A stretch of DNA of 64,000 nucleotides from Halobacillus karajensis (GTDB taxonomy: Bacteria; Bacillota; Bacilli; Bacillales; Halobacillaceae). The position numbers and the translations under genes were made by a program. A model generated the notes under the pieces. The model did not search any database. It worked only from the letters and a program-made list of their open reading frames with translations, and was not told the DNA's origin. Positions 591 through 25,620 of this stretch are shown here, piece by piece; position 1 is the stretch's first letter, and each line of letters starts with the position of its first letter. The DNA lies in the NCBI RefSeq assembly GCF_900108515.1, contig NZ_FNWW01000003.1, positions 1 through 64,000 on the forward strand. Direction: 5' to 3'.

Positions 591-640
591 ATATCTCAGT
601 TTCAAATCTTCCTGTATCGGGGGCAATTACCTAATAGAGC
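591..640 (+). repeat. dispersed intergenic element, copy A
   Basis: ATCTC at 593 is followed 26 nt later by GGGGGC, with AAATCTTCC between. This is the recurring element described in the findings. It ends about 40 bp before the GNAT gene start. Confidence 0.7.
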
Positions 641-679
641 ACTCGCGTTTATTACATAATTCGAATGGGAGAGAGAAAA

Positions 680-1138
680 ATGATGGTGAGATTAGACCAA
701 ATGAATTCAGAGGAATTTCAAAAATATCTAAGTTTTGCAATTAAACATTTTGCCGACGAACAAATAAAGTCCGGTAATTGGAAGCCGGAAGAGGCAATTA
801 GCAAGGCAACAGAAGAATATGAAAAGTTGCTCCCTGAAGGACAAGATACGGAAAACAACCACTTATTTACAATTCGGGATGGAAGTAAAGAAGTTGGTAT
901 GATCTGGCTTGCACAAATAACAAATGAAAAAGGGTTTATTTATGGTTTAAACATTTGGGAAGGAAATCAAGGTAAAGGTTATGGCAAAAAAACTATGCAA
1001 GAAATTGAAGTCTTAGCTAAGAAATTCGGATTGAAAAGTATAGGTCTACATGTTTTTGCTCACAACAACATAGCACGAGATTTATATGAAAAGTTAGGGT
1101 ATATAGAAAAAAACATTAAAATGGAAAAGACTTTATAA
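680..1138 (+). CDS. GNAT-family N-acetyltransferase
   Basis: The 152-residue product has the GNAT fold pattern. An N-terminal helix region is followed by strands around HLFTIRDGSKEVGMIWL, then the acetyl-CoA pyrophosphate-binding loop Q97-G-K-G100-Y-G102 (Q/R-x-x-G-x-G/A), and the C-terminal HNNIARDLYEKLGY block typical of motif B. Such enzymes move an acetyl group from acetyl-CoA to an amine; the substrate cannot be told from sequence. The start at 680 is chosen because GGGAGAGAG lies a few bases upstream; an in-frame ATG at 665 overlaps that site. It stands alone between copy A of the dispersed element and a terminator. Confidence 0.88.
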   Translation: MMVRLDQMNSEEFQKYLSFAIKHFADEQIKSGNWKPEEAISKATEEYEKLLPEGQDTENNHLFTIRDGSKEVGMIWLAQITNEKGFIYGLNIWEGNQGKGYGKKTMQEIEVLAKKFGLKSIGLHVFAHNNIARDLYEKLGYIEKNIKMEKTL

Positions 1139-1175
1139 GCCATAAAGATATTTTGATTAATGTGGGAAGGTCCGA

Positions 1176-1201
1176 AGCCAGCGTTTGGTGCTGGCTTTTT
1201 A
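1176..1201 (+). terminator. terminator after the GNAT gene
   Basis: AGCCAGC and GCTGGCT pair around a 7-nt loop and are followed by a T-rich run. Confidence 0.75.
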
Positions 1202-1323
1202 TTATGTTAAGAAAGGTAGTGCATCTTAACCTTATTCGATAAAAGCTCTTATTATTAAACAATATATTGAAATGGATAGATATGTGTTGGACAATATTAC
1301 CAGGATTGAAAGAGGTGGTATGG

Positions 1324-1549
1324 TTGAAAATTTATACACTTATATTGTCAGTTTTGGTCATTTCTCTAGCTGGTATAAATTAGTAATCGGAGAACCGACT
1401 AAGATTATTCCATACACGATGATGTTTTTAGGAGCATATATGTTGGTACTGGGTATTGAAAATTTAAAAAAAGAAGAGTTCATACATAGGGTACATTCAA
1501 GTTGCCGTTGGGGTTTCTATGCGTCTTATCAGCGTTTATTACTACCTGA
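1324..1549 (+). pseudogene. DUF3953-like small membrane protein, frameshifted
   Basis: Three pieces of one small membrane protein lie in successive frames. A TTG start at 1324 behind GAGGTGG gives KIYTLILSVLVISLAGIN and then a stop. The next frame gives LVIGEPTKIIPYTMMFLGAY then MLVLGIENLKKEE. A third frame gives FKLPLGFLCVLSAFITT and a stop at 1547. The joined order (helix, PYMMFLG-type helix, LKK linker, last helix) matches my memory of DUF3953 proteins of Bacillaceae. Two frameshifts make the gene non-functional unless they are sequence errors. Confidence 0.55.
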
Positions 1550-1591
1550 TCCCAGGGATGAATCCACAAAGAGCCAGTAAGTCCTGGGCCT

Positions 1592-1687
1592 TTTATTGCG
1601 TTTAAACCTACAAGAGTAAAGGGCGTATTGGCTATTTCAAAAAACACCTTGAAACAAATCCTAAGCAATCGGGGCGCTTGCTTAAAA
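1592..1687 (+). repeat. dispersed intergenic element, copy B (long form)
   Basis: The core ACCTTGAAACAAATCC then ATCGGGGCGC lies at 1646-1675. A further 50 bp upstream of it matches the sequence upstream of copy K at 22042-22094, so these two copies share about 95 bp. A partial hairpin (GCGCTTG with GACGCAC) follows. Confidence 0.75.
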
Positions 1688-1786
1688 ACGGACGCACTTA
1701 ATACATAAGCTATAGGGAATAAGAGATAGCTATTTAACTGGAGTGGCAGATTCGTGCAATGAGTATCGAAAGAGAGGTGTTTATCT

Positions 1787-2194
1787 TTGTGGGAAATTAT
1801 TAGAGGTAACGAATATTTTTATATTGTGACGTACTCTCTAATTGTATTGATAATTAACCTCGATTACATAAGGGATTTCAAAAATATTAAAAAAGGACTT
1901 AGCGATATTTCCTCTGATGAGGAGTTGGAAGTTGATACTAAATCTATGTCTTTGCTTTTTATTGTTTTGTTATTTAACTTTTTGCGAAGATGGTTCATTT
2001 ATTTACTTGCAATGTTAATTACAGAGAACATATTTGTCATCAGTATTTCATTTATTTTGTTTGTCGTAAGTTTATACGACAGCATCTTTAATTATAGTCT
2101 TGCAAAAGTGAAAAAATCGAATATAGCCTTGTATCTGGCAGTTATTGATGCCATTTACATCTCGACTTTTGTTATTTATCTATTTAGCGTCTGA
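1787..2194 (+). CDS. hypothetical integral membrane protein (135 aa)
   Basis: The product begins MWEIIRGNEYFYIVTYSLIV from a TTG codon placed 7 nt after AGAGAGGTG. Four hydrophobic segments can be seen, near residues 10-27, 52-77, 82-98 and 111-134. The acidic loop SDISSDEELEVD lies between the first two. No domain is recognised. It lies between copies B and C of the dispersed element and has no operon partner, so context gives no role. Length, start and hydrophobicity pattern make it a believable gene. Confidence 0.6.
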   Translation: MWEIIRGNEYFYIVTYSLIVLIINLDYIRDFKNIKKGLSDISSDEELEVDTKSMSLLFIVLLFNFLRRWFIYLLAMLITENIFVISISFILFVVSLYDSIFNYSLAKVKKSNIALYLAVIDAIYISTFVIYLFSV

Positions 2195-2234
2195 AATTTT
2201 TATTGAGATCACGTGAAATGAAAGATCTGCTTCC

Positions 2235-2280
2235 ATATATCTTGAAATCAAGTCTTCAAGTAAAGAGGGTGATTGCTTAA
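2235..2280 (+). repeat. dispersed intergenic element, copy C
   Basis: It contains ATCTTGAAATCAAGTCTTC, the cleanest 5' half in the window with the inverted repeat CTTGA-AA-TCAAG, followed at the standard distance by GAGGGTGATTGCTTAA. It ends about 90 bp before the aminopeptidase start. Confidence 0.75.
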
Positions 2281-2367
2281 AAGAGTAACTGACGGGATCA
2301 GGTTAGTTTAAGTAGGTCAGGGTTCTTGTAGTAAAATTGTACAAGAACATCACAGGGGAGATATTAA

Positions 2368-3621
2368 ATGATTAAAGGAATATATGAATTTATAAGTGAA
2401 GTACAGTTAAAAAAGTATGCAGAACTTGCTGTACGAGCTGGTGTAAATCTGCAAAAAAATCAATTATTGATTATTCATAGTGATATACAAAATGCTACGT
2501 TTGCACGTCTAATCCAGACGGTAGCTTACGAGGCAGGAGCTTCAAATGTATTTATAGATTGGACAGATGAGCAGTCTACCAAAGAATTTTACTTAAATGC
2601 AGCAGATAGTGTCATCGATCACTTTCCTGATTGGCAGGCTGCCCGTTTTAAGGAGTGGGACGATGCAGGTGCTGCTTACATCCATATTATTTCTGAAAAC
2701 TTAGATGTCTTTAAGGAGGTTTCCCCAGAACGGATCAGCCGCTTTCAAAAGGCCTCCCGCACCAAGTTGGAGGGTTATTATGCAAAGATTATGTCTCACG
2801 AGGTGCGCTGGTGTCTTCTAGCTGTCCCAAACGTTGTGTGGGCAACTAAAGTATTTCCCAACCTAAGTAAAGAAGAAGCTTTACAATCATTATGGAAATT
2901 AATTTTAAAAGGATCTCGGGCAGATGGGAAAAATCCTATAAAAGATTGGGAGAGTCATAATAAAGCCTTCCAGTCTCGAAAAAAAATCTTAAATGAGAGC
3001 CAATTTGAAGCCCTGCATTTTAGAAATAGCCGTGGAACTGATTTATTAGTTGGTTTACCTAAAAATCATCTCTATATCGGTGGGGGTGTCATAGATAAAA
3101 ATGGAATACCTTTCTTTCCGAACATTCCTACGGAAGAAATATTTACTGCTCCCCATAAGAATAAGGTGAATGGCAAATTGGTAGGTACTAAACCTCTTAT
3201 CTATGGGGGAAGTGTCATCGACGAATTTTATCTAATTTTTAAAGATGGACGGATTACTGACTATTATGCCGCAAAGGGGCAGGAAATGTTACAAAATCTC
3301 ATCGAAACAGACGAAGGTTCACATTATCTAGGTGAAATTGCATTGGTCTGTAATAAATCACCTCTTGCTCAGGCAGATACTCTTTTTTACAATACCTTGT
3401 TTGATGAAAATACGTCCTGTCATATTGGAATCGGAAATGCATCTCCTTCCAACATTCAAAATGGGATTGACCAATCTGAGGAAGAGTTGAAGGCAGCGGG
3501 TCTGAATGCTTCACTTTTGTTAGTCAATGTGACCTTTGGTACCGAAGATATGAAAGTAGTGGGCATTGAAGAAGATGGAACTGAAGTCCTGCTAATGAAA
3601 GATGGAGATTTCCAATTCTAA
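2368..3621 (+). CDS. M29-family aminopeptidase (AmpS/AmpT-like) with altered metal site
   Basis: The 417-residue length and layout fit the M29 thermophilic aminopeptidases, dimeric two-metal enzymes that release N-terminal residues. Visible family features are the N-terminal AELAVRAGVNLQKNQLLIIH domain, the FPNIPTEEIFTAP loop with E256/E257, E323 in SHYLGEIALV, and H352 in HIGIGNA. The last two ligands, normally His-x-Asp in SLLHVDFMIG, read SLLLVNVTFG here: L385 and N387 replace His and Asp. The ligand assignment is family knowledge from memory; the substitutions are read directly. The ATG follows GGGGAG. The rest of the frame is intact, so this may be a non-catalytic paralogue or an enzyme with reduced metal binding. 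Confidence 0.85.
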   Translation: MIKGIYEFISEVQLKKYAELAVRAGVNLQKNQLLIIHSDIQNATFARLIQTVAYEAGASNVFIDWTDEQSTKEFYLNAADSVIDHFPDWQAARFKEWDDAGAAYIHIISENLDVFKEVSPERISRFQKASRTKLEGYYAKIMSHEVRWCLLAVPNVVWATKVFPNLSKEEALQSLWKLILKGSRADGKNPIKDWESHNKAFQSRKKILNESQFEALHFRNSRGTDLLVGLPKNHLYIGGGVIDKNGIPFFPNIPTEEIFTAPHKNKVNGKLVGTKPLIYGGSVIDEFYLIFKDGRITDYYAAKGQEMLQNLIETDEGSHYLGEIALVCNKSPLAQADTLFYNTLFDENTSCHIGIGNASPSNIQNGIDQSEEELKAAGLNASLLLVNVTFGTEDMKVVGIEEDGTEVLLMKDGDFQF

Positions 3622-3790: not shown

Positions 3791-3837
3791 ATAATCGAAT
3801 TCGAGTCTTTCGTAAACAGGGGCTATTGTTTAAGGGA
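3791..3837 (+). repeat. dispersed intergenic element, copy D
   Basis: AATCGAATTCGAGTCTTT is followed by AAACAGGGGCTATTGTTTAA. The first half contains an inverted repeat (TCGAATTCGA). It ends about 60 bp before the next gene. Confidence 0.65.
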
Positions 3838-3894
3838 GTACTCGTCCTTCTATATTAATTATATTAAACATAAGAATTTTTTAGGAGGGATTGT

Positions 3895-4206: not shown

Positions 4207-4593
4207 GAAGAAATCAAGTCACGCAGATTTAACATGTGACTTGGGAATAAAAGTGGAAGAATGTCAACCACTTACAGCGCTAAAAGGTGCGCTAGTTAAT
4301 AATTTATACAAAATATCTTGAAACTGAGTCTTCCTCAATCAGAGGCAAATCTGGAATAAGAATTGTGTTCTTTCTTGACTTTTCGGGCCATTTACCGGAA
4401 TAAGGATCTGCGTTTCTTGCAGAATAGGATTTGGCATTATATAAAATAACTATCTCCTTTACTGACAAAGAAAATCAATAAAATTTTCAATTTATAGTTC
4501 TTAAGTGAGCGTATGTATAGCGAAACGATGAAGAAACCGTGAAAATAGAAGCAGGCACTAAATAGCAATTTATCCATTCAGAAAGAGGGGAAA
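4207..4593 (+). other. gene-free stretch with element copy E
   Basis: No reading frame of interest was found. Copy E of the dispersed element occupies 4311-4360 (ATCTTGAAACTGAGTCTTCC, then ATCAGAGGCAAATC). A weak inverted repeat of GTCACGC and ACATGTGAC near 4216-4240 may be a terminator for the gene before. The remainder shows nothing I can name. Confidence 0.5.
4311..4360 (+). repeat. dispersed intergenic element, copy E
   Basis: The two conserved boxes are at the standard 26-nt spacing. Its 3' part, GGCAAATCTGGAA, recurs at 22018-22032 just upstream of copy K. Confidence 0.65.
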
Positions 4594-5361
4594 ATGATGG
4601 GTCACTTTATTGAGGATTTCTTCAAACGAATTCAATATCAAGGTAGTCATGATGTCCAATTTGATGATTTACCCAAGGTAATGTTCCAATTCGCAAAGAA
4701 TATCCCTTTTGAAAATATAGATATTATGCAGAGGAAAGACATTGAGATTAATGCTGATAATGTAAAAAGAAAAATCATCGATCAGTCTCGTGGTGGGCTG
4801 TGTTATGAGCTGAATCCGATGTTTTATTACTTCTTACAAGAACATGGTTTTGATGTTCAGATGGTTCCTGCAACTGTATCAGGAAACCACCCGGAAATCA
4901 TTGAAACGCATGTGACCATTGTGCTAAAGAAAAATGATCAACGGTATTTGATAGATGTTGGGTTTGGGGCTAATCACGCATTACAACCTATCCCTTTCTC
5001 AGGAGAATTCGTGACCTCCTTGACGGGAGAATACCGCGTTAAACATGATAAGACTGAAGCGGGTGAATATGTTCTTGAAAAGTATCGTTGTGGAAAACTG
5101 GAAGCAAGCTACTCCTTTTTTTTAAAGCAAATTAATGAGTCACATTTAAACCATATGAAGGAAGTAATAATGAAACACCCCCATTCACCCTTTAACCAGT
5201 CTGCTTTATTAACTAAATTAACGGATGACGGCCATATGACTCTTACAGATAAAACATTTACGATGGTGAAAGATGGCTCGAAAAATAAACAAAGCATCGA
5301 TTCAATTAAGATGAAACAACTAAGTGCTAGCCAATTTGGAATTGATGTGGGGGATATTTGA
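4594..5361 (+). CDS. arylamine N-acetyltransferase (NAT)
   Basis: This 255-residue protein has the NAT layout. FAKNIPFENIDIM is followed by the RGGLCYELN block with catalytic C70, then H106 in ETHVTIVL and D121 in LIDVGFGA, which together form the Cys-His-Asp triad. NATs transfer the acetyl group of acetyl-CoA to arylamines or hydrazines in the cytosol. An AGAGGGG ribosome site precedes the first of two adjacent ATGs; either could be used. The gene stands alone between copies E and F of the dispersed element. Confidence 0.92.
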   Translation: MMGHFIEDFFKRIQYQGSHDVQFDDLPKVMFQFAKNIPFENIDIMQRKDIEINADNVKRKIIDQSRGGLCYELNPMFYYFLQEHGFDVQMVPATVSGNHPEIIETHVTIVLKKNDQRYLIDVGFGANHALQPIPFSGEFVTSLTGEYRVKHDKTEAGEYVLEKYRCGKLEASYSFFLKQINESHLNHMKEVIMKHPHSPFNQSALLTKLTDDGHMTLTDKTFTMVKDGSKNKQSIDSIKMKQLSASQFGIDVGDI

Positions 5362-5730: not shown

Positions 5731-5787
5731 GTTATCTCGAAACTGTGTTTTCCTCAATCGGGGGCGATTATCCAACAGGATAGTCGC
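5731..5787 (+). repeat. dispersed intergenic element, copy F, with hairpin
   Basis: ATCTCGAAACTGTG with TTTTCC is followed after 26 nt by GGGGGC. The right part, GCGATTATCC-AACA-GGATAGTCGC, forms a 10-bp stem (one G-T pair). This copy shows the two-part structure most clearly. Confidence 0.8.
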
Positions 5788-5882: not shown

Positions 5883-6908
5883 ATGGTTAAGTATCCATCA
5901 GCACTAGAAAAGGGTGACAAGCTTGCTGTCACAGCTCCATCAAGTGGAGTAGAAGAGCATTTACATATGCTAGTACATAAAGCTAAGGAAAAGGTTGAGC
6001 ATAAAGGGTTCATAGTCCAAACAGGGAACACAATATGGACAGAAACGAAATCCAGCAGTGCCAACGCGCATATAAGAGCAAAAGAGCTGACCCAATTTCT
6101 TGAAGACGAGAATATTAAGGCAATTATCCCCCCGTGGGGAGGACAGTTTGCCATGGAGATCCTACCTATGATTGATTGGAATTACATTAAGACCCTGCCC
6201 CCTAAGTGGATCCTTGGTTATTCAGATATTAGCACAATCCTGTTAGTATATACGACGATAACTGGTAATGCTTCAGCACATGGAACGAATTTCAATGAGT
6301 TATCAGCTCCTGAATGGGACGAACTTACTGCAAAATGGACGGAAGTTTTAGGCTGTAGTATAGGTCAGGATGTGATCCAGTACTCCTCAAATAAATATCA
6401 ATCCTCTTGGAAAAAAACATTTGAGAACCCAGCTACAGGTTTTTACTTTGATGCGGAAACAGAGTGGAAGTCACATACAGGGGAGAAATCCCATGAATTT
6501 TCTGGAAGGCTGCTGGGCGGTGTCATGAATACATTACAAACCTTGATTGGTACTCCTTACGATAAAGTGAATGAATTCACTTATAACCATGCACAGGAGG
6601 GAGTAATCTGGTACTTGGAATCCGTTGATTGGAGTGCTGCAGAAATATATAGGTGTTTGTGGCAGATGAAATATAATGGGTGGTTCAAGAATGCAAATGG
6701 AGTACTTATAGGGAGAGCAAGTGGGTATTCACCGACGAAAGATTTTGAAGTAGAGGATGCTTTGATAAATGTGTTCGGGGAAGAGGTACCAGTTGTATAT
6801 GACGCTGATATTGGTCATATGCCTCCACAAAATATACTCGTAAATGGAGCATATTCAACAGTAACTTATCAAGATGGAAAAGGGACGATAAGGATGCAGT
6901 ATATTTAG
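5883..6908 (+). CDS. S66-family peptidase (LD-carboxypeptidase / MccF-like)
   Basis: The 341-residue product carries the family's Ser-Glu-His triad: S114 in LGYSDIS, E246 in WYLESVDW and H312 in DIGHMPP. It also has the N-terminal GDKLAVTAPSSG strand and the IIPPWGGQFAMEILP oxyanion region. Members either trim peptidoglycan tetrapeptides (LD-carboxypeptidase) or cleave peptide-nucleotide antibiotics such as microcin C (MccF). The PPWGG motif and overall length suit the MccF-like branch, so detoxification is as likely as cell-wall recycling. No signal peptide is seen. AAGGGGG lies 12 nt before the ATG, a rather long spacing. Confidence 0.88.
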   Translation: MVKYPSALEKGDKLAVTAPSSGVEEHLHMLVHKAKEKVEHKGFIVQTGNTIWTETKSSSANAHIRAKELTQFLEDENIKAIIPPWGGQFAMEILPMIDWNYIKTLPPKWILGYSDISTILLVYTTITGNASAHGTNFNELSAPEWDELTAKWTEVLGCSIGQDVIQYSSNKYQSSWKKTFENPATGFYFDAETEWKSHTGEKSHEFSGRLLGGVMNTLQTLIGTPYDKVNEFTYNHAQEGVIWYLESVDWSAAEIYRCLWQMKYNGWFKNANGVLIGRASGYSPTKDFEVEDALINVFGEEVPVVYDADIGHMPPQNILVNGAYSTVTYQDGKGTIRMQYI

Positions 6909-7274
6909 GCTTTATCTTGATTTTAAGTGTTCAAGAAAAGGGGCGTTAGCTAGTCTTTCAGAAAAGAGGGGGGCAATACTGGAGTAGGGGTACATAAGTG
7001 CTGTGGGTAAAATGTGAGTAGAAATTTAAGGATATCCCGCCTTAGAGACAGAGTCCTTAACCAAATAGGGTCACTTTCTACATGTTCTTACTAAATTAGT
7101 TAAAAATGTGATAATATAGTTCATTAAAATTGGATACATTACTTCTTTATGTAAACGCACTTTAAACAATTAAAGAATGATTGGGGTTACCTTGATCTCA
7201 AGTTTTCAACTATTAGAATTAGACCGTTTAGAATGGTACCCAGTCTATTTTTAATGATGGCTAACCATAATAAA
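6909..7274 (+). other. gene-free stretch with degenerate element copies G and H
   Basis: Copy G (6911-6955) has ATCTTGATTTTAAGTG, then GGGGCGTTAGC at the standard distance. Copy H (7187-7217) keeps only CTTGATCTCAAG with TTTTC and lacks the G-run. No reading frame above background was found in the rest. Confidence 0.5.
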
Positions 7275-9646: not shown

Positions 9647-10197
9647 CCTTCTTTATCCATTTAACAAATTTTGTTATTCGGTCGAAGTGTCTTATTTGAG
9701 GGATAACGATATTCCAACTCACTCCTTCATTGTGTATTACGTTTACTAAATCTATATGCATAAGGATATTAGGGATGTCCTTTAATCAATAGTGAGAAAA
9801 TAATGTGAAGAATATGAACCATGAATAATTGACTCAGTAAAGATGTTTATAGCCCTGCAATCCCACGTCGTCCCCTTTATAGAAAATTCATTTATAAGTG
9901 GTTTAGTCCTTCCATACATATCCTTGATTGTCTAGTTCATAAGGATGCTGGGGATAGAACGGGTTATAATCGAGAGCTAACGGTTGCTATAGTAAAGGAA
10001 CAGAGATATCTCGAATCTGAGTCTTACATAAACGGGGACAACAAATCTGAAAAAGTGATTGGTTCTCTTTCTCATTATTTCACACCAGACAAAATTACGG
10101 ATCTCACTCTTGAAACAATAAATGTAGAAAAGGAAAATCATCCACTTAAATAGAATGCTTTAGAAACAAATTAGCTTGGATTAGGTGGTTTTTCTTA
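9647..10197 (+). other. gene-poor stretch with element copy I and a coding remnant
   Basis: The left part should hold the promoter of the minus-strand dehydrogenase pair; no clear boxes were found. Copy I of the dispersed element occupies 10005-10047 (ATCTCGAATCTGAGTCTTAC, then AAACGGGGAC). A frame reading VIGSLSHYFTPDKITDLTLE onward to a stop at 10151 has protein-like composition but no start and is probably the tail of a lost gene. Confidence 0.45.
10005..10047 (+). repeat. dispersed intergenic element, copy I
   Basis: Standard boxes and 26-nt spacing. It precedes the FlaR-like gene by about 150 bp; copy J follows that gene, so the gene is flanked on both sides. Confidence 0.7.
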
Positions 10198-10707
10198 ATG
10201 ACAATTCCAAAAAAGATACATATTATTGGTTCTGTTGGAAGTGGTAAAACGACTTTAGCAAAAGAAATGTCTTCAAAGTTCTATATACCGTATTACGAAT
10301 TAGATAATGTAGTTTGGAAAAGGCTTAACTCTGGAGATATCAGAAGAACTGAACAAGAAAGAGAAGAGTATCTAAATAGTATAATACAATTGGAGAGTTG
10401 GATAATTGAAGGAGTTCATAATGAGGATTGGGTAAGCAATTGTTTTCATAATGCAGATTTGATAATTTTTTTAGATACACGATATTCAATAAGAACCTAT
10501 CGTATTATAAAGAGGTTTCTTAAACAAAAACTTCGACTAGAGAAATCAAATTACGAGCCAACATTACAAATATTTTTTAAAATGTTTAAATGGAACAGAT
10601 ACTTTGAAAACATTGGTAAAGTTAATTTTTTTAATAATTATGGCATACATACAGACAAGATAGAAGTTATTAGGGACACAAAATGTATTAAGAAATATTT
10701 TAATTAA
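10198..10707 (+). CDS. FlaR-like P-loop NTPase (adenylate-kinase-like)
   Basis: The 169-residue product opens MTIPKKIHIIGSVGSGKTT, a Walker A loop at residues 11-18. It continues IPYYELDNVVWKR and DIRRTEQERE, the substrate-lid pattern of proteins annotated in Bacillus as DNA topology modulation protein FlaR, with a Walker-B-like DLIIFLD. These are small nucleotide/nucleoside kinase relatives whose true substrate is not established; the FlaR name is historical. The ribosome site is poor (TTAGGTGG about 12 nt upstream). It is a single gene flanked by copies I and J of the dispersed element. Confidence 0.8.
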   Translation: MTIPKKIHIIGSVGSGKTTLAKEMSSKFYIPYYELDNVVWKRLNSGDIRRTEQEREEYLNSIIQLESWIIEGVHNEDWVSNCFHNADLIIFLDTRYSIRTYRIIKRFLKQKLRLEKSNYEPTLQIFFKMFKWNRYFENIGKVNFFNNYGIHTDKIEVIRDTKCIKKYFN

Positions 10708-10736: not shown

Positions 10737-10808
10737 TGTATCTCGATTCCAAGTCTTTAACTAACGGGGATGAATCTTGACTAAGGAGATTCGGAACCGT
10801 CCCGTTCT
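10737..10808 (+). repeat. dispersed intergenic element, copy J, with hairpin
   Basis: ATCTCGATTCCAAGTCTTTA then ACTAACGGGG is followed by GAATCT/AGATTC nested inside ACGGG/CCCGT. This is another copy whose right half folds. Confidence 0.75.
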
Positions 10809-10857: not shown

Positions 10858-11919
10858 TTATGCTTTCGTCTTATAAGATGTAATGTGAGCTTGCAGCGTA
10901 TCATCAGTGCCGAATAGGAAGTGTTTCTCCATATCCGGCGAATACGTGGAGTTTACAGCTGTACGGCCGACGCTTTCTGCCACTTCACGAAGCATAGCCG
11001 GAGAAGCTCCACAGCAGAGTCCCAGGTAGTTCACACCAAGACTATGCGCTTCTTTGGCCCACTCAGCAAGCTCATACCGGTTCGTGTAGAGCGGATCCAG
11101 GGACGTTGGGAACGTTGTTTCTGTTGGAAGTGTACAAGCACAGCTACCGTCCGGCAGGTTGAAGAAGGTAGGGTGTTCTTCCGTCGTACGGTAAGGAATG
11201 GGAAGGGCACCTACATAACCGTCCACCGTATTACGGATTTTCTCTACATACGGCTGCATTGTCGCTGGGCCGCGGAAGCAATTCATCCCCACAACAAGAG
11301 CGCCTTTTTCTTCTAATAAGCGGCAGGCTTCTTCTACTTCGTAGCCGTCTCGAAGAATATTTTCTCCCATCAGACCGAATGTGATAACAGCAGGGAGATC
11401 TTGTTTTTGAATTTCTTCAAGAGCAATCAGCGCTTCTTCATAGTAATAGAAGGTTTCGCCGTTCACAAAGTCTACGCCTTCTTCCTTACACCAGCCGATC
11501 ATCTCCGCAAACATGCTTCTTGTTTTTTCAACAGATTCAGGATCATCCGGGTTGAACAGGTTGGTGTTGGAAACGTTCCCAGCTACGAGTGCTTCTTCCT
11601 CCGGGTGCTCCTGAGCAACCTCTTTGGCTAGATGGATGGCTTGGCGGTTAAGCGGCTCTAATAGATCCTCTTTGCCGATGATTCTCATTTTTTCGCGGTG
11701 TCCGTTATAGGTAAAGGCTAAGACCACGTCGGAGCCTGCTAGCATATAGTCCCGATACGTCTGTTTTAGGGCTTGCGGGTTATCCAGCGCTACTTCAGGT
11801 ACAAAGGACCCGGCTTGTAAATAGCCGCGGCGTTCTAGCTCAAACAAGTAGCCTTCTCCACATATAACTGGTCCATCCTGTAATCTTTGTTCTAATGATC
11901 TTTTCATTTCATTCAACAA
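10858..11919 (-). CDS. homocysteine S-methyltransferase family protein (BHMT-like)
   Basis: The roughly 350-residue product shows the homocysteine-methyltransferase barrel with its three zinc cysteines: C214 in GMNCFRG and C302/C303 in LGLCCGASP. The overall layout (GEGYLFELERRGYL, AGSDVVLAFTYNGH, GNVSNTN) resembles betaine-homocysteine methyltransferase more than MmuM. The likely reaction is methyl transfer to homocysteine to give methionine; glycine betaine as donor is inferred and would suit a halophile. A SAM-I riboswitch with terminator lies upstream, which independently supports a methionine-synthesis role. The first codon is TTG, but an ATG four codons later has better spacing from AAAGG. 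Its DNA looks more GC-rich than its neighbours. Confidence 0.85.
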   Translation of the reverse strand: MLNEMKRSLEQRLQDGPVICGEGYLFELERRGYLQAGSFVPEVALDNPQALKQTYRDYMLAGSDVVLAFTYNGHREKMRIIGKEDLLEPLNRQAIHLAKEVAQEHPEEEALVAGNVSNTNLFNPDDPESVEKTRSMFAEMIGWCKEEGVDFVNGETFYYYEEALIALEEIQKQDLPAVITFGLMGENILRDGYEVEEACRLLEEKGALVVGMNCFRGPATMQPYVEKIRNTVDGYVGALPIPYRTTEEHPTFFNLPDGSCACTLPTETTFPTSLDPLYTNRYELAEWAKEAHSLGVNYLGLCCGASPAMLREVAESVGRTAVNSTYSPDMEKHFLFGTDDTLQAHITSYKTKA

Positions 11920-12088: not shown

Positions 12089-12100
12089 TATAAAGAATCT

Positions 12101-12202
12101 CCTTATCTTCAAGGTATAACTACTACCTTCTGGATTTAGCACCGTGCCAATGGCTGGTTGCTGAGGTATCAAAGGGCCAGTCCCTACACCTCTCTGGATA
12201 AG
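12101..12202 (-). promoter_or_regulatory. SAM-I (S-box) riboswitch aptamer
   Basis: Read on the minus strand it shows the S-box signatures in order: CTTATCCAGAGAGGTGTAGG, then GGACTGGCCC, GATACCTCAGCAACC, GGTGCTAAATCCAG, and the closing GAAGATAAG that pairs with the 5' end. When SAM binds, the downstream terminator forms and the methyltransferase gene is switched off. No coding frame here should be annotated. There are about 130 nt between terminator and gene. Confidence 0.95.
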
Positions 12203-12454
12203 TTTTACTATTATATGGTTTTTGAAAAAAGAGTTGCACACTTTATATGAGACGTATGCTTAAATCAGGGATTAAATAAAGAATTCATTTTGAAAATTAG
12301 ATGTTTATTATTTCGCTTGCGTTTTACAATACAGGAAAATGAATTAAGAATCAATGGAATTTTCAAAAAAGAAGTTTCAAACTTGATTTTGATTTATTTG
12401 AAAATACCTGCAGGTGTTGTAACTTAGAAATTGAAGAGGTTAATAGAATTATCC

Positions 12455-12546: not shown

Positions 12547-12600
12547 TCACGTCATTTAGTGATTTTGGCGAAGCGTTTTACATTATTGCAGATAGATTTT

Positions 12601-12661
12601 ATATCAGCATCAAGTCTTATTGAAACGGAGGGGCGATAGCTGCACATTAGCTATCGCTTCT
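12601..12661 (+). repeat. dispersed intergenic element, copy X, with perfect hairpin
   Basis: ATCAAGTCTTATTGAAACGG then AGGGGCGATAGC. The right half GCGATAGC-N9-GCTATCGC is a perfect 8-bp stem. The left box is partly lost. Confidence 0.6.
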
Positions 12662-13003
12662 TTGCTAACGGAGCAGGATTTTGTAAGACTCACTTTCGAG
12701 ATAATCCTTAGTATTTTTAATATAACAGTTAACAAGGTGCTGGGATTATGATGAATATCCACAAATGTTAAAGTAAGCCCCAATTTCCTTATTAACTTTC
12801 TTAGAATTGTTTAAGTAGCACTTAATAATGGTGTTTATGAACTTCATACAATGACTCTTTCTACAATAGATGCGGCTAGCAATCCGTATTAATCCGTATT
12901 CTAATCTTTAACTTAGAAAAAATCCTTTTAAAGTTTCAAATTTTGCTCCATTTATAGAGGAATGGCTAATGTAAGCAAAAAAAATATAGCTCAAGAGACG
13001 TAG

Positions 13004-13364: not shown

Positions 13365-13382
13365 GTGAAGATAGGATGGATA

Positions 13383-14228
13383 ATGATGAGAAGGAATAGA
13401 AATAACAAAAAGCGATCAGTTCGAGGTAAAGCTTCGAACTTCTCAGGGCAACATTTAATGCATAACAAAAAGATAATCAATGAAATTTTGGCAAGAGCAA
13501 ATATAAATGATGAAACGGTTTTAGAGTTAGGAGCTGGTAAAGGCGCCCTAACGACCGATCTAAACCAGAAAGCAAAAAGAGTATTAGCGGTGGAATATGA
13601 TGCTGAATTTGTAGATATTCTTAAGCAGAAAACTTTTTATGATACGAATACTAAGATTATTCATGAGGATATTTTGAATATCCGGTTACCGAGGGAACCT
13701 TTCGTAGTAGTTTCTAATATTCCGTACTCAATTACTACCCCTATCATGAAGATGTTGTTGACTAACCCGTCATCATCTTTCCGAAGAGGTATTATTGTTA
13801 TGGAAAAAGGTGCTGCTAAGAGATTCACAGCGAAATATATTAAGAATTCCTACGTGTTAGTATGGAGAATGTGGTTTGATATTCAGTATGTAAAAAGTAT
13901 TTCTAAATATAATTTCTCTCCGCCGCCGAAAGTGGATTCTGCCATGGTTAAAATTACAAGGAAGAAGAAGCCTTATCTTGAACGGAGGGAAGCTAAAGCA
14001 TTTAGGGGATTAGCGGAGTACGCCATGAAGTATCCAGATGCTAAAGCCGATGATGTATTAAGAGGAATCTTTACACCCCCACAAATGAAACACTTGAGAA
14101 AGAATGTAAAATTAAACTATGACACTACTATAAAGTCCTTGACAGAAGAACAGTGGAGGATAGTTTTTAGAACAATGGTTCAATATGTCCAACGCCATTT
14201 TTGGCCCAAATTAAAAAATAAAGAATAG
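13383..14228 (+). CDS. erm: 23S rRNA (adenine-N6)-dimethyltransferase, Erm(D)/Erm(34)-like
   Basis: The roughly 281-residue product contains the Erm hallmarks: [17 protein letters not shown], the SAM-binding [11 protein letters not shown], the EYDAEF/HEDIL acidic contacts, and the catalytic motif [13 protein letters not shown]. The C-terminal [14 protein letters not shown] and long basic tail match the Erm(D) group. It methylates A2058 of 23S rRNA and gives resistance to macrolides, lincosamides and streptogramin B. ATG 13383 (or the next ATG) fits the length of Erm(D); the upstream ribosome site is weak. It is preceded by promoter, leader peptide and attenuator, and followed by an Msr-like ABC-F gene. 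Confidence 0.93.
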
Positions 14229-14270
14229 ACAATTTATCACGGATTTAAGAGTGGAAAAGGAGGAGGCACA

Positions 14271-14294
14271 GTGCAATTTTTATTATTTTTTTGA
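14271..14294 (+). CDS. leader micro-ORF MQFLLFF upstream of the ABC-F gene
   Basis: A GTG codon 4 nt after the very strong ribosome site AAAGGAGGAGG opens a 7-residue frame, MQFLLFF, then TGA. It directly precedes two overlapping hairpins and the ABC-F start, the layout of drug-sensing leaders. Short hydrophobic leaders such as MYLIFM of msr(D) are known to stall ribosomes carrying macrolides; this peptide is of the same size and character but different sequence. Function as a sensor is inference. Confidence 0.7.
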   Translation: MQFLLFF

Positions 14295-14339
14295 TATGAG
14301 CTTTCATTAAAGCTCGTATCGATCCTAGCTATCGATACG
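14293..14339 (+). promoter_or_regulatory. two mutually exclusive hairpins before the ABC-F gene
   Basis: GATATGAGCTTT (14293-14304) pairs with AAAGCTCGTATC (14309-14320, one G-U). CGTATCGAT (14315-14323) pairs with ATCGATACG (14331-14339). The stems share CGTATC, so only one can form at a time. The first begins within the leader's stop codon, as expected for a switch moved by a stalled ribosome. Neither has a long T-run, so control of translation of the ABC-F message is more likely than termination. Confidence 0.65.
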
Positions 14340-14368
14340 AAATAAGTATATTTCGGGAGGTAGCAAAG

Positions 14369-15826
14369 ATGGAACAATTATGTTTTGAATTAAAAAATAT
14401 AGAAGTCACTTATTTAGATAAAGAAATATTGCAGATTGATCGTTTAGCTGTCCATCAATTTGATCGGATAGGAATCGTTGGTAAAAATGGTACAGGAAAA
14501 AGTACATTGTTAAAGTTGCTTGCAGGTATCGTGCCCCCTACAAATGGAGAAGTGGCTCGTCATGTAGACTACGGCTACTTTGAGCAGGTAGAAGGACCAA
14601 CTAGACAAGAAGCTACCCCTAAACTGTTAGGAAAGTGGCACGTGCCCAAACATTCGGAAACCATCAGTGGAGGGGAAGAGACGAGGATGAAACTCGCTCA
14701 ACTTTTTACGCATTATTACGAGAGTCTATTGATTGATGAGCCGACGACCCATTTGGATCAGGATGGCATTTCGTCTTTATTGGGGGAACTTCGTTATTAC
14801 TATGGGGCATTAGTGATGATTAGCCACGATCGCGCTGTACTCGATGAACTTGTGACCACCATATGGGAAATAAATGATGGAAAGGTGCACGTGTATTCAG
14901 GTAATTACAGCGAATATTTGGAACAAAAGCAGTTAGAACGGGAACAACAAAACCAGGCACATGAACAATATTTGAAAGATAAGGAACGTCTGGAAAAAGC
15001 AGCAAAAGAAAAAATGAATAAGGCAAAGAAGATTGCGGACCATGCTTCCATGTCAAAGAAAGAATCTAAGGCAAAAGCGAATCGCATGTTTGAAACGAAG
15101 TCAAAAGGGACCAGTCAAAAAACGGTGCAGCGGGCCGCAAAAGCAATAGAACACCGCAAGGAAAAGCTTGAGGAAGTAGAAGCGGTAGAAGAAGAAAAGA
15201 CGATTGTATTCCGTCAGTCAAAAGCCTTGGAGCTGCACAATAAATTTCCTATTATGGCTGACAGATTATCGCTCCAAATGAACGGTGAAGTGTTATTGGA
15301 AGACGTAAGTTTTCAAATTCCATTAGGCAAAAAGATTGCGATTACCGGAAGTAATGGGAGTGGAAAAAGTACACTGTTTCAGCATATTTTCAACCGAGGC
15401 GCGGGGTTGACGATATCACCTAAGGCGGAGTTTGGTTACTTCCGTCAAAAAAGCTATCAATTTACAAGTGATGAGTCGGTTATCCAGTTTTTGAAAAAAC
15501 GTTCAGAATATAAGGAGGGCTTTTTGCGGAGTGTCCTCCATTCCATGATGTTTGTCGGAACTGATATACAAAAAAGTGTGAATTCGTTAAGTGGCGGAGA
15601 AGCGATCCGCCTGCAGCTTTGTCTCCTGTTTTTAAGAGAATACAATATTCTATTATTGGACGAACCGACAAATTTCTTAGATATCCAAGCGATCGGGGCT
15701 TTAGAACGCTTTATATCCGCTTATGAAGGAACTATTTTATTTATAACCCATGATAAGAAATTTATAGAAAATGTAGCTGATTTAGAATTTCAGATATCTG
15801 GAAAGGAATTTAGGGAAAAGATTTAA
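14369..15826 (+). CDS. ABC-F ribosomal protection protein, Msr-like
   Basis: The 485-residue protein has two ATPase domains and no membrane segments. Domain 1 has Walker A GKNGTGKST (38-46), signature SGGEE (about 100) and LLIDEPTTHLD. Domain 2 has Walker A GSNGSGKST (327-335), signature SGGEA (about 408) and LLLDEPTNFLD. Between them lies a long charged interdomain linker (about 185-275) rich in Lys/Glu/Gln, the part that reaches into the ribosome. Size, YFEQ motifs and linker resemble Msr(A)-type proteins that displace macrolides or streptogramins from the ribosome. GGGAGG precedes the ATG. It lies 140 bp after erm with its own leader. Confidence 0.88.
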   Translation: MEQLCFELKNIEVTYLDKEILQIDRLAVHQFDRIGIVGKNGTGKSTLLKLLAGIVPPTNGEVARHVDYGYFEQVEGPTRQEATPKLLGKWHVPKHSETISGGEETRMKLAQLFTHYYESLLIDEPTTHLDQDGISSLLGELRYYYGALVMISHDRAVLDELVTTIWEINDGKVHVYSGNYSEYLEQKQLEREQQNQAHEQYLKDKERLEKAAKEKMNKAKKIADHASMSKKESKAKANRMFETKSKGTSQKTVQRAAKAIEHRKEKLEEVEAVEEEKTIVFRQSKALELHNKFPIMADRLSLQMNGEVLLEDVSFQIPLGKKIAITGSNGSGKSTLFQHIFNRGAGLTISPKAEFGYFRQKSYQFTSDESVIQFLKKRSEYKEGFLRSVLHSMMFVGTDIQKSVNSLSGGEAIRLQLCLLFLREYNILLLDEPTNFLDIQAIGALERFISAYEGTILFITHDKKFIENVADLEFQISGKEFREKI

Positions 15827-21724: not shown

Positions 21725-22094
21725 GATTCCCCTTCTTTCAATTAATAAAAAAATGGTACATTGCAATCGAACCTATTCAAACAACCTTCTGAGATGTTAA
21801 TCAAGTTCTTTAATTTTTGGCTGCATTTTGACTGGAATCGTTTACTAAATATACAGGCCTCTCAAGAGTACATAAACTTTTGAGAGGCTTTTCTTTTATT
21901 GTAAGAGGCGATTGGGGTTTACGATCTACATGCATGAATCAAACATAAAAAGAAGTTTTCTGGAATTCGGATTCCACTGGAAATTCTTCTAATAAGAGCT
22001 TTTATTAGTATCATTCGAGGGGCAAATCTGGAACTAAAAGGTTTATCGCGTTTAAACCTATAAGAATAAAGGGTGTATTGGCCATTTCAAAAAA
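21725..22094 (+). other. intergenic stretch after the glucitol operon
   Basis: Besides the operon terminator it holds GAGGGGCAAATCTGGAA at 22016-22032, the 3' part of a dispersed element copy (compare copy E), running straight into the long form of copy K. This looks like two element copies joined head to tail with nothing between them. Confidence 0.5.
21856..21896 (+). terminator. terminator of the glucitol operon
   Basis: GCCTCTCAA(G)AGT pairs with ACTTTTGAGAGGC and is followed by TTTTCTTTTATT. Confidence 0.85.
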
Positions 22095-22140
22095 TACCTT
22101 GGAATCAAGTCTTAAGCCATCGGGGGGCGATTGTTTAAGG
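22042..22140 (+). repeat. dispersed intergenic element, copy K (long form)
   Basis: The core ACCTTGGAATCAAGTCTT, then ATCGGGGGGCGATTGTTTAA, lies at 22096-22138. The 50 bp before it match the sequence before copy B. It ends 20 bp before a 28-residue membrane-protein gene. Confidence 0.8.
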
Positions 22141-22159
22141 TAAAGGGGGAAGAGACGTT

Positions 22160-22320: not shown

Positions 22321-22376
22321 TTTATCTTGAATTTGAACCTCTAGCTAACGGGGGGGCGTTTGCGATATAAGCATTC
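22321..22376 (+). repeat. dispersed intergenic element, copy L
   Basis: ATCTTGAATTTGAACCTC, then CTAACGGGGGGGCGTTTGC at the standard 26-nt spacing, and an imperfect stem with GCATTCGC. Confidence 0.7.
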
Positions 22377-22441: not shown

Positions 22442-22602
22442 TTGAAAGCTTTAACAAGATCAATATTAGCTTTTCTAGTGTCTGGATTGCCTTTGGATTT
22501 ATTTTCAATGACTTTGATGAGGGCAGGCATACTCATATTTACTATTAATTAGTGCGTTAGTTAAAGGTAAAATGGGAGATATCTCGAATTTAAGTATTTA
22601 AG
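22442..22602 (+). pseudogene. small membrane protein gene with two frameshifts
   Basis: A TTG start behind AAGGAGGGG gives KALTRSILAFLVS. The next frame supplies WIAFGFIFNDFDEGRHT and a third supplies YLLLISALVKGKMGDISN up to a stop at 22600. Together these make a two-helix protein of about 52 residues with an acidic loop. As sequenced, the first frame ends after 36 residues at 22552. The family is not recognised. Confidence 0.45.
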
Positions 22603-22617
22603 AAACGGAGGCTTTTC
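22578..22617 (+). repeat. dispersed intergenic element, copy M
   Basis: ATCTCGAATTTAAGTATT, then AAACGGAGGC at the standard spacing. It overlaps the end of the decayed gene before it. Confidence 0.6.
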
Positions 22618-22784
22618 TTTAGATAGATAAATTGTCCTCTATACCAATAATTGTTGAGAGTTATCCCGGAAAGTTGTTTATTGAAAGGTAGTGTAGGGTT
22701 AGTTGTACAGGAATTTGAGAAACTAAAAAAGTGAAATCCTGCAAGCAATACAAAATACAGGCGCTGTTTTAGGGAGGGAATGGT

Positions 22785-23411: not shown

Positions 23412-23753
23412 ATGGTCAAAAGCAAGATGTTCTTCATTAGTGCAACTTTACCTATTATTTTGATGGGTTGTTCCCTGAAAGAAGGGACTTTTATTCAAGG
23501 GGACATAACAGGAATTAACAAAGAAAGTGGAGAGATGGAAATCGAAATTGAAGCATGGACAACAGTTGGCAATGCAGGATCTTCTACAGAGTTATATGAA
23601 TTTGAAAAGAAGCCAAATGCAAAAACTATACGAGTTTCCAATCCAAAAAAATATGAGGAAGGGCAAAAAGTAGAGGTGAAGGTTATTAAAAATTATGAGG
23701 AAGATGTCTGGGATATAAATCGATTAAAGTTTGAAGTAGAAAAGGTAAATTAG
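23412..23753 (+). CDS. small lipoprotein (113 aa), unrecognised
   Basis: A signal sequence (MVKSKMFFISATLPIILMGC) ends in a lipobox with Cys20, so the mature protein is anchored to the outer face of the membrane. The mature part is beta-rich and acidic: GDITGINKESGEMEIEIEAW, then KPNAKTIRVSNPKKYEEGQK and a basic/acidic end. It resembles the small OB-like DUF3221/YobA-type lipoproteins in style, but I cannot assign it. AAGGGGGG precedes the ATG. Confidence 0.7.
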   Translation: MVKSKMFFISATLPIILMGCSLKEGTFIQGDITGINKESGEMEIEIEAWTTVGNAGSSTELYEFEKKPNAKTIRVSNPKKYEEGQKVEVKVIKNYEEDVWDINRLKFEVEKVN

Positions 23754-23796
23754 AATATTTGATAAATATGGGAATCAGGTTTTAGGGGAGATGTTT

Positions 23797-23973
23797 TTGA
23801 AAAACTTTATGGATTTATTATCAAGTTTTTCCTTTGTAATTGGCTGGTTTATAGCAGTAGTTGCTACATGTTATCTCATTCCTTCCATATTACTTGGAGG
23901 TATATTTTTATTAATTTCATTTATGGCTGTCTTATTCGGAGTCTTCCTTATTTGGCTATCTAAACAAATTTAG
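23797..23973 (+). CDS. small two-helix membrane protein (58 aa)
   Basis: The TTG at 23797 lies 6-7 nt after AGGGGAG, while the ATG two codons upstream touches the ribosome site, so TTG is the likelier start. Helices lie at about residues 8-29 and 31-53. It follows the lipoprotein gene by about 40 bp and may share its transcript. No family recognised. Confidence 0.5.
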   Translation: MKNFMDLLSSFSFVIGWFIAVVATCYLIPSILLGGIFLLISFMAVLFGVFLIWLSKQI

Positions 23974-24051
23974 CTACTAACTGGATTTAAAGAGGGTTGT
24001 TTACAGATCCTGCTGAAGTTGGCAGTTAAGAACGTGTAGTTATTTAATAAT

Positions 24052-24098
24052 AGATTATCTTGAAACCAAGTCTTCCATAAACGGGGGCTTTTGCCAAA
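24052..24098 (+). repeat. dispersed intergenic element, copy O
   Basis: ATCTTGAAACCAAGTCTTCC, then ATAAACGGGGGCTTTTGCC. It matches the consensus closely and ends 28 bp before the next small gene. Confidence 0.75.
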
Positions 24099-24125
24099 TT
24101 AGGGATGAATATTTAAAAGAGGTGT

Positions 24126-24290
24126 GTGCATGGATTACATGGCATTTTCTTATTTGGATTTTTAGGATGCTTTCTCATAGGTTCTATATTAAATTTTTTG
24201 CTTAATATGAGAAGGAGGAAAGACTGGGTCATTACTTTATTATTAAGCGTTGTATTAGGTATGCTTTTCTTGCCTTTTATGGCAAATTAA
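24126..24290 (+). CDS. small two-helix membrane protein (54 aa), GTG start
   Basis: From a GTG at 24126 the frame reads HGLHGIFLFGFLGCFLIGSI, then LNFLLNMRRRKDWVITLLLS and VVLGMLFLPFMAN. Two helices are joined by a strongly basic loop (NMRRRKD), which should face the cytosol. AAAGAGG lies 3 nt upstream, a short spacing. An ATG at 24130 is in a different frame that stops after 12 codons. Unrecognised family, directly after copy O of the element. Confidence 0.5.
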   Translation: MHGLHGIFLFGFLGCFLIGSILNFLLNMRRRKDWVITLLLSVVLGMLFLPFMAN

Positions 24291-24488
24291 ATGGTTTACA
24301 AAAGAATTTAATATCTATAACCACTGAAAGTGACCACTTTGTTAAACACCATTGAGCAAGCTTTAAGTTATGTGGAAAAATGGAATCATAGAATCAAATC
24401 CTAGTGGAAAGGGACTATTGTGAAAAACCCGTAAAGTAATAGCGTTATTGGATCCTTATGCCACCGTAAACCATAAAGGAGGTAACTG

Positions 24489-24743
24489 ATGAGTAAAAAT
24501 AAAATTATTATTAGTTTAATAGCTATCTCACTTTTAGGTAATGTGTGGCTTTTCTATAAATGGCAACAACAAAAATCAATTATAGAAGAAAAACACACGG
24601 AATTTTTAGGTAATACAGTAAAATTGAAAGCATTTAGAGTTGAAGATCCGTCTGTATATTCACCCCAAAGGCTTGTGATGCTCGATAGATTAACTGAAGT
24701 TACCTCAGGTGTCTATTATGCTAATCAATTATATGAAGTGTAA
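24489..24743 (+). CDS. hypothetical membrane-anchored protein (84 aa)
   Basis: An N-terminal helix (MSKNKIIISLIAISLLGNVW) probably serves as an uncleaved anchor or signal, followed by a polar external domain (EKHTEFLGNTVKLKAFRVED and RLVMLDRLTEVTSGVYYANQ). AAAGGAGGT provides an ideal ribosome site. No family recognised. A decayed element-like stretch (ATCAAATCC...AAGGGACTATTG) lies about 70 bp upstream. Confidence 0.6.
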   Translation: MSKNKIIISLIAISLLGNVWLFYKWQQQKSIIEEKHTEFLGNTVKLKAFRVEDPSVYSPQRLVMLDRLTEVTSGVYYANQLYEV

Positions 24744-24910
24744 AGAGGTTAAGAACTAAAAAATAGTCCCTTAACAACTCCCTAAATTGTGTTTTGCAAT
24801 ACATTAAAAGTCAAGGAAAGTAACGAGAAACAAAAATTGTCCGATATTCAACAAGTGAAATCCTAACATGAGAGTGGGTTTAGGTACTTAGGGATGGAGA
24901 GTTTACCTAT

Positions 24911-24949
24911 TAATTCGATTTCAAGTTTTCATCTAAAAGGAGCATTTCT
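24911..24949 (+). repeat. dispersed intergenic element, copy P (degenerate)
   Basis: TTCGATTTCAAGTTTTC, then AAAAGGAGC. Here the G-rich box has become the ribosome site of the following gene. Confidence 0.5.
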
Positions 24950-25206
24950 TGAAGAAAAAAGTGGCCATTATGGAAAAAAGACTACAAACGTTACGTTACA
25001 TTGATATAGTGATTCTTTTAGTAGGAGCTATTTACTTATTATTGGTGGGTGTTACTGAGAAAAACCTTTCCATTAAAATCCTTATGACTATTTGTTTATC
25101 AAACACCTTAATTCGAGGAATCGAAGCGCAGTGGAACGGTAGAAAAATCGCTAGTTTTTTCATTTATGGTTTCAGTCTATTTTTAATATTTGTGTTAATT
25201 ATATAA
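24949..25206 (+). CDS. small membrane protein (85 aa), paralogue of the remnant at 35286
   Basis: The TTG at 24949 is placed 6 nt after AAAAGGAG. The product has helices at about 19-38 (YIDIVILLVGAIYLLLVGV), 43-58 and 67-85, with the motif RGIEAQWNGRKIASFFIYG between the last two. The same motif (RGIEAQWSGRKMASSIIYG) occurs in a broken copy at 35286-35520, so the family has been duplicated in this genome. Function unknown. Located between copies P and Q. Confidence 0.65.
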   Translation: MKKKVAIMEKRLQTLRYIDIVILLVGAIYLLLVGVTEKNLSIKILMTICLSNTLIRGIEAQWNGRKIASFFIYGFSLFLIFVLII

Positions 25207-25620
25207 AGAAAATTCAGTTACCAATATTAAGTAAAAGTATCTATAAATTTAAAAAGCTCAACAGTCCATTGTATTGAATAATGAATTTAGTTTATCTAGA
25301 AATCAAGTCTTATATAGAAACGCGGGCTTCTCCCTAGTATCTCTTTCTTCTAAGTTCTAAACCAACTTTCTCCAGGACTTCTTGTGAAGAAATGTTATTA
25401 TTTATTATCTTAGCAAAGGTTTTGGTGAAACCTTCCTTACTCAATATCCAACATGGTATGTAAAGCTCTACATGGAAGAAGGTGTGCCTGATTATAAGGT
25501 ACACCTTTTTTGTATCATCGTGATCTTCTTCTTCTCCATCTAAAGGAGTGGATCATTTCAAACCTTGACCCGATGAATGAATACGAATCCATTTGTATTC
25601 TATAAACAAGGAGGTTGCAT
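25207..25620 (+). other. intergenic stretch with element copy Q and a terminator-like hairpin
   Basis: Between element copy Q and the next gene lies a hairpin at 25479-25511 (AAGGTGTGCC/GGTACACCTT followed by TTTTT), which could end a plus-strand transcript. No gene start was found between them. Confidence 0.45.
25291..25333 (+). repeat. dispersed intergenic element, copy Q
   Basis: ATCTAGAAATCAAGTCTTAT, then AAACGCGGGC with two extra bases between the boxes. Confidence 0.6.

Follow-up and report, generated by a model that had tools for sequence, protein, structure and literature searches.

The closest described systems to the one considered here are integrons (IntI, attI, attC), sedentary chromosomal integrons and clusters of attC sites lacking integron-integrases (CALINs). 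IntI carries a specific insertion before its HxxR motif, attC boxes read RYYYAAC/GTTRRRY, and group IIC introns sit at attC sites. We analyzed a 64,000-nucleotide stretch of Halobacillus karajensis (contig NZ_FNWW01000003.1, positions 1 to 64,000; hereafter the window), in which an intergenic element recurs between single genes. The system to which this element belongs resembles integrons and CALINs in having a tyrosine recombinase beside a primary site; long, one-orientation arrays of cassettes that mostly hold a single open reading frame (ORF); sites with inverted arms and a hairpin; arrays without a recombinase; and group II introns at sites. We put at about 0.8 the probability that, as sequence comparisons suggest, each element is a site at which gene cassettes recombine, within integron-like arrays served by a Xer-like recombinase linked to the array head, a short palindromic site. 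Classical integrons are rarely reported in relatives of Bacillus, where this array type occurs. The available portion of the IntegronFinder 2.0 paper gives one complete Firmicutes integron (Limnochorda pilosa) and a few CALINs (PMC9024848), and that of a review counts Firmicutes among the phyla with integrons (PMC8618304); some of the reported Firmicutes CALINs could be arrays of this kind. A literature search of open-licence PubMed Central papers, by titles and abstract starts, found no account of this system among the matches listed.

Several features set the system apart from integrons. The recombinase fails the IntI model and sits upstream of the head in the same orientation, the site sequence differs (TATCTYGAAWTCRAGTCTTC..AACGGGGGC), the heads are near-perfect palindromes, and exchange appears to take place at both the GGGGGC and the GGGCAGG borders. 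The bcr elements, interspersed intergenic repeats of Bacillus of which some can fold, offer a second likeness as foldable intergenic repeats in Bacillaceae; strand-coherent arrays, cassette breakpoints and a linked recombinase distinguish the present elements from them, by description alone. A third likeness is to pdif modules, which also combine a Xer-like recombinase, two inverted 11-bp arms around a short spacer and gene modules between sites. Here, in contrast, sites are direct-oriented in long arrays, a dedicated single recombinase is linked to the head and the host Xer genes are separate; one-direction sites and the head-linked dedicated recombinase do not fit pdif modules, with their inverted dif-like sites and host XerC/XerD. 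Such XerC/XerD-dif and pdif modules are known from Acinetobacter (PMC7399989).

The repeat had been proposed in a sequence-only reading of the window, and we examined it with two profiles. R1 was built from 15 window copies and is circular for those copies; R2 holds 56 sequences, none from the window, chosen with a profile that had seen window copies. R1 returned 16 window matches at E ≤ 1, and R2 found 14 places at E < 0.001, every one on the plus strand. The repeat therefore exists by a profile made from copies outside the window. Among the 13 copies listed as main ones by that reading, 11 were recovered by R2 at E ≤ 4e-6 (593, 2238, 3793, 4315, 5733, 6914, 10008, 10740, 22096, 22580 and 24056), and R2 gives only weak scores to those at 22324 (E 0.16) and 1646 (E 0.7), which enter through R1. 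Its seven degenerate copies fared unevenly: 24911 (1e-5), 12601 (2e-4) and 25293 (3e-4) held, 28945 (0.003) and 7187 (0.08) are marginal, and 35611 (1.7) and 35245 (no R2 match) lack support. The 26-nt spacing was present in the copies inspected. The restriction to the plus strand also stood, the sole minus-strand match below E 0.5 being the inverted right arm (12678-12703) of the site at 12600-12703, which is a long site and extends further than first noted. The exact ATCTYGAA...AACGGGGGC pattern occurs once in the window, at 24057, and in none of 100 shuffles. Single-gene units do lie between copies as described; the single cassette-like array gives way to two clusters (0.6-12.7 and 22.1-25.3 kb), because between ~10.9 and 22.1 kb R2 finds the 12.6-kb site alone and the genes there are ordinary ones on both strands. 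Two minus-strand genes are also present within 7.3-9.6 kb. Hairpins from single folding of 14 window copies were mostly weak, with z below -2 in three.

The element is abundant beyond the window. Scoring 150 of 1664 candidates with R1 in the 4.07-Mb source genome gave at least 124 matches at E ≤ 10 and at least 88 at E < 0.01, 15 in the window and 73 elsewhere. The stronger matches cluster, with one strand per cluster, and several clusters lie at contig ends. When 61 genomes, the source included, were scanned, 41 had a match at E ≤ 0.001: 36 of 37 in the window's family and 5 of 24 in other families, the latter with one to four matches each. The only family genome without the element at this threshold, G020, belongs to the same genus and offers a natural control. 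With 20 candidates scored in each genome, R2 matched at E ≤ 1e-6 in at least 39 of the order's 299 genomes. An exact pattern retrieved 16 stretches (121 kb) from Halobacillus, Pontibacillus, Thalassobacillus and Bacillus sp., in which the profile matches at E ≤ 0.02 number 80. The direction of replication was shared by 45 of 46 matches at E ≤ 1e-5 in three complete genomes (terminus assumed half-way), a count in which matches within one array are not independent and which leading-strand gene bias alone could produce.

The window repeat is the conserved half of a larger site. From 77 loci (1.33 Mb) we obtained 492 unique forward elements, comprising 28 heads (~60 bp), 37 long sites with a right arm and 427 half sites; the control window for the right arm gave 2 of 492, and 32 of the 37 long sites measure 95-109 bp. 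Long sites run in the order left arm, AAC, GGGGGC, hairpin, T-rich stretch, GGGCAGG-like core, right arm, and the head consensus is approximately TATCTCGAAACTGAGTCTTCAAnTAA-nGGGCAGG-TTAGTTGAAGACTCAGTTTCGAGATA. Both agree, by eye, with a core in which 8 bp separate two inverted 11-bp arms. Short palindromic pairs come first in their run: 28 of 29 have no same-strand element upstream within the stretch examined (one locus is counted twice, L054 has no other element, and the exception is L171:15922). All five long pairs have one or more same-strand elements upstream. A terminator-like hairpin follows 148 of 455 non-head elements, compared with 32 in the control window and 16-30 in shuffles. A promoter like those of extracytoplasmic function (ECF) sigma factors (TGAAAC-N15-17-CGTA), which we take to approximate the sigmaW consensus, lies behind 9 of the 28 heads, 12 of the 37 long sites and 15 of the 427 half sites, compared with 0 of 28 and 2 of 427 in the control windows for heads and half sites, respectively. 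Group II introns were seen directly 3' of a site's GGGGGC at L053:871, L104:9355 and 15251, L105:14223, L107:9905 and others; Rfam families RF02004 and RF00029 matched in those four loci, and 9 of 532 elements were tagged.

Comparison of flanks indicates that gene neighbours change at the elements. Elements with complete flanks were collapsed where identical over 150 nt, partly because some loci were present twice, which reduced 578 matches to 532. Among these, 107 pairs share a flank: 55 on the left only, 51 on the right only, one mixed and none on both sides. Gene capture and loss at the elements, which the sequence-only reading had suggested, is supported by these breaks. Dropping group II introns and right-arm readings left 75 clean pairs (left from 55 to 53, right from 51 to 22), whose identity switches at a median of 30 (left) and 26.5 (right) counted from the first T; the G-run occupies 27-32. 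In 36 of 53 left-shared and 17 of 22 right-shared pairs, the likelihood interval of the switch touches 22-32. Units found behind a head at one locus and at a long site at another share sequence from long-site positions 60-75 and head positions 15-31 in 12 of 12 cases; a second exchange border may lie near GGGCAGG, besides that at GGGGGC. A table of BLAST starts was of no use for half and full sites, where the motif itself forms part of the alignment.

Genes of the window itself appear to have moved relative to their neighbours. G008 and G007 also carry the S66 peptidase gene (5883-6908), with 86-88% protein identity. The cassette ends agree among the three genomes, and the left arms, the upstream flanks and the sequence past the downstream G-run all differ. 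The M29 peptidase gene was found at six loci in six other genomes (86-92% protein identity). In G117, from another family, it is 90.6% identical compared with 75.3% for XerD, and the corresponding values are 90.2 vs 79.0 in G033 and 86.3 vs 80.7 in G031; XerD, as a single yardstick gene, makes this comparison thin. Window cassette genes have different neighbours in other genera and in a further family, an outcome that favours capture and loss by the tests set out in the sequence-only reading. More broadly, 300 intervals in 27 loci have a median length of 736 bp, and the longest ORF is co-oriented with the site in 230 of 268 (6 more had no ORF, and 26 over 2500 bp were excluded). Cassettes appear to change neighbours at the site and usually to hold one ORF in the site's direction.

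A recombinase gene is linked to the heads. In G009, 101 bp separate the end of a 280-aa Xer-like tyrosine recombinase gene from a head downstream on that strand. G008, G002 (contig 16) and G066 carry further intact copies (83-85% identity), with the head 101, 78 and 101 bp downstream, so that all four intact copies at ≥83% identity stand directly upstream of a head (78-101 bp). The G066 locus (L179, 14124-15125) holds an intact recombinase and head, with no array in the stretch examined; it is a putative In0-like state. Relatives at 53-54% (G002 contig 20 and G021) lie near phage-tail-like genes, by eye, with no sites in the stretch examined, nor was a site present in the stretches examined around the prophage-like relatives L156 and L159. 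Broken copies occur near elements in G022 and G061. The source genome has recombinase fragments only, on C6 (268 bp before a site), C17 and C11, and its arrays are therefore probably sedentary fossils like CALINs. That no integrase is visible was correctly said of the window, and relatives carry intact copies beside heads.

Order-wide, the recombinase was found in 61 of 299 genomes at E ≤ 1e-60 and 52 at E ≤ 1e-80, mostly at 59-75% identity and full length; phylum-wide, 3 of 398 genomes matched at E ≤ 1e-80, two of these in the order. Ten plasmid records match at E ≤ 1e-50 (37-63% identity), as do five phage records at E ≤ 1e-40 (32-37%). In an alignment of 15 proteins (59-84% identity to the first), R138, K165, H229, H255 and Y264 are invariant and R232 is present in 14; these are presumably the catalytic residues of a tyrosine recombinase. 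We also compared 20 recombinase loci from other families. Within 150 nt of the recombinase stop, a GGGCAG core was found by pattern in five (L212, L213, L215, L225, L227) and by eye in a sixth, L214. The sequence TGAAATAATTG stands in this interval in 8 of the 20, compared with 17 occurrences in 368 kb elsewhere, and also precedes the heads of G009, G008, G002 and G066. Variant sites recur in several loci, such as L209, L215, L217, L225 and L226.

In the mechanism we propose, the recombinase would bind inverted ~11-bp arms (TCTTCAASWAA / TTAGTTGAAGA, by eye) around an ~8-bp spacer, and strand exchange would occur at the spacer border. Circular cassettes would enter at the attI-like head and leave at attC-like long sites (left arm, GGGGGC, terminator-like hairpin, GGGCAGG-like core, right arm). 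Many half sites may have lost the right arm or never had one. A bolder proposal, to which we give an even chance, is that Bacillales hold a second integron system of an origin apart from IntI, with a Xer-derived recombinase, capture at palindromic primary sites and exchange at either arm. The system would still operate in many genera, on chromosomes as well as plasmids, and an envelope-stress (sigmaW-type) promoter would drive some of the cassettes nearest the head.

Other explanations were weighed against the same data. An ordinary conserved intergenic element (terminator, promoter, RNA leader or repetitive extragenic palindromic-like repeat) with no role in recombination would account for the terminator-like hairpins and ECF-like promoters in excess of controls; the breakpoints, the palindromic heads first in runs and the recombinase link make it very improbable, and on positions 1-40000 of the window the S-adenosylmethionine (SAM) riboswitch was the only Rfam family matched. 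The narrower possibility of a promoter or RNA leader only, raised in the sequence-only reading, does not account for the same breakpoints, heads and linked recombinase. Somewhat less improbable, and still unlikely, is a true integron of the IntI/attC lineage that has diverged past usual detection. The architecture is the same: we found a primary site beside a recombinase gene, co-oriented single-gene cassettes and apparent exchange at the site. Source-genome arrays have the CALIN form (site clusters, recombinase fragments only), with sites that do not fully match the attC boxes. The arms end AACTAAC and begin GTTAGTT, each matching 6 of 7 letters of those boxes, by eye. Scores with the NCBIfam model NF040815, named 'site-specific tyrosine recombinase/integron integrase', fall near its cut-off of 220 (218 for P0001, 225.6 for the G008 protein). 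Set against this, the integron-integrase model TIGR02249 gives the recombinase 95.6 bits with a cut-off of 265, and no IntI exceeds that cut-off in any of 22 genomes. The solved XerD aligns over 23-272 to 23-286 without a long gap, compared with residues 209-267 only for IntI4, and the recombinase scores ~205 with the XerC and XerD models, again short of the cut-offs (330-335). The system is best read as integron-like and separate from IntI, with a recombinase that is not an IntI by the curated model.

The most serious competitor, which we nonetheless consider doubtful, is that the arrays are moved by another agent (host XerC/XerD, a phage integrase or homologous recombination between repeats) and that the head-linked recombinase is incidental. 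Most element-bearing genomes do lack an intact close copy, other tyrosine recombinases lie within some kilobases of arrays (for example at G009:C1:3663581 and G000:C12:383102), and prophages carry relatives at ~53%. However, every one of the four close copies abuts a head, fragments of the same gene precede sites in the source genome, the repeats are ~46 nt and degenerate, short for RecA, cassettes are common to different families, and G020 has XerC/XerD-type genes and no element. XerC/XerD and phage integrases thus rank below the head-linked recombinase as agents.

A number of observations weigh against head-linked cassette recombination itself. An intact recombinase copy at ≥83% was present in 4 of 44 family genomes and missing from the other 40. 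No recognisable right arm was found in 427 of 492 elements, arm covariation sought within one site and within one cassette gave none, and the switch fell outside 22-32 in 22 of 75 clean pairs. The lack of covariation is neutral towards recombination through a folded bottom strand. Within the genus, M29 is not closer than XerD (86.8 vs 92.9% for G008, 91.6 vs 92.2% for G002). Outside the family, 14 of 20 recombinase loci have no GGGCAG core near the gene; L219, L220, L223 and L224 have one weak site match at most, and L221 and L222 have matches on the opposite strand only, possibly a second layout. A loose site pattern found almost nothing on L219-L224 and L228-L230. In L229 (CP053689.1), a plasmid labelled Arthrobacter citreus, most of the small genes lined up behind the recombinase (62%) are on the opposite strand, and the layout therefore varies; the organism may be mislabelled, or the plasmid may have moved.

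Cassette content was surveyed in 27 loci with 222 ORFs (≥60 aa), 120 of these ORFs being scanned with Pfam. Among the matches listed (25 of 68 families) were acetyltransferases (7 members for the commonest model), DinB (4), APH-like kinases (4), RDD (3) and many singletons; PADLOC found two families with one member each. If our interpretation is true, these arrays constitute a large gene-exchange route of Bacillales that is unnamed in the literature searched, a comparison case for the evolution of cassette capture outside IntI, and a reservoir of small unexplored genes, as well as a model for annotating many puzzling intergenic repeats. The features of the window are collected in Table 1.

Table 1. 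Putative cassette sites and cassette genes in the window, with E-values for profiles R1 and R2 and for Pfam models.
Feature	Position	Strand	Evidence
Cassette site (half type)	592..643	+	R1 6e-10, R2 2.7e-7
Cassette gene, GNAT acetyltransferase	665..1138	+	PF00583 1.8e-14
Degenerate site	1646..1692	+	R1 5.9e-7 (copy used to build R1), R2 E 0.7; left flank repeated at 22042 (63 nt, 89%)
Cassette site (half type)	2238..2288	+	R2 3.7e-12
Cassette gene, M29 peptidase	2368..3621	+	PF02073 7.8e-154; six other loci at 86-92% protein identity
Cassette site (half type)	3793..3842	+	R2 4.6e-8, match from 3795
Cassette site (half type)	4314..4364	+	R2 7.5e-8
Cassette gene, arylamine N-acetyltransferase family	4594..5361	+	PF00797 1.7e-51
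Cassette site with hairpin	5733..5785	+	R2 1e-6; fold z -2.6
Cassette gene, S66 peptidase	5883..6908	+	PF02016/PF17676; equal cassette ends, other neighbours in two other genomes
Cassette site (half type)	6913..6966	+	R2 3.7e-6
Left-arm remnant, marginal	7187..7212	+	R2 E 0.08
Cassette site (half type)	10007..10055	+	R2 9.6e-9
Cassette gene, small P-loop kinase-like protein	10198..10707	+	PF13238 2.2e-5, under its cut-off
Cassette site (half type)	10739..10790	+	R2 3.8e-9
Long site: left arm, hairpin, inverted right arm (12678-12703)	12600..12703	+	R2 1.8e-4 (+), 0.0077 (-); fold z -2.8; inverted repeat I15 with 10007
Cassette site (half type)	22095..22144	+	R2 4.4e-7
Degenerate site	22323..22374	+	R1 1.5e-7 (copy used to build R1), R2 E 0.16
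Cassette site (half type)	22580..22631	+	R2 3.2e-8
Cassette site, best conserved in window	24056..24105	+	R2 5.6e-13
Cassette site (half type)	24911..24962	+	R2 1.1e-5
Degenerate site	25293..25338	+	R2 2.6e-4
Left-arm remnant, marginal	28945..28967	+	R2 0.003

Three further observations concern the window. The SAM riboswitch (12100-12204, minus strand) lies upstream of, and on the same strand as, a homocysteine S-methyltransferase family gene (10858-11919). An rRNA adenine dimethylase family gene adjoins a two-domain ABC ATPase gene at 13365-15826. Finally, the stretches 24969-25225 and 35284-35539 are related (72-85% over 159 and 46 nt) and are probably a decayed duplicate of one small membrane-protein gene.

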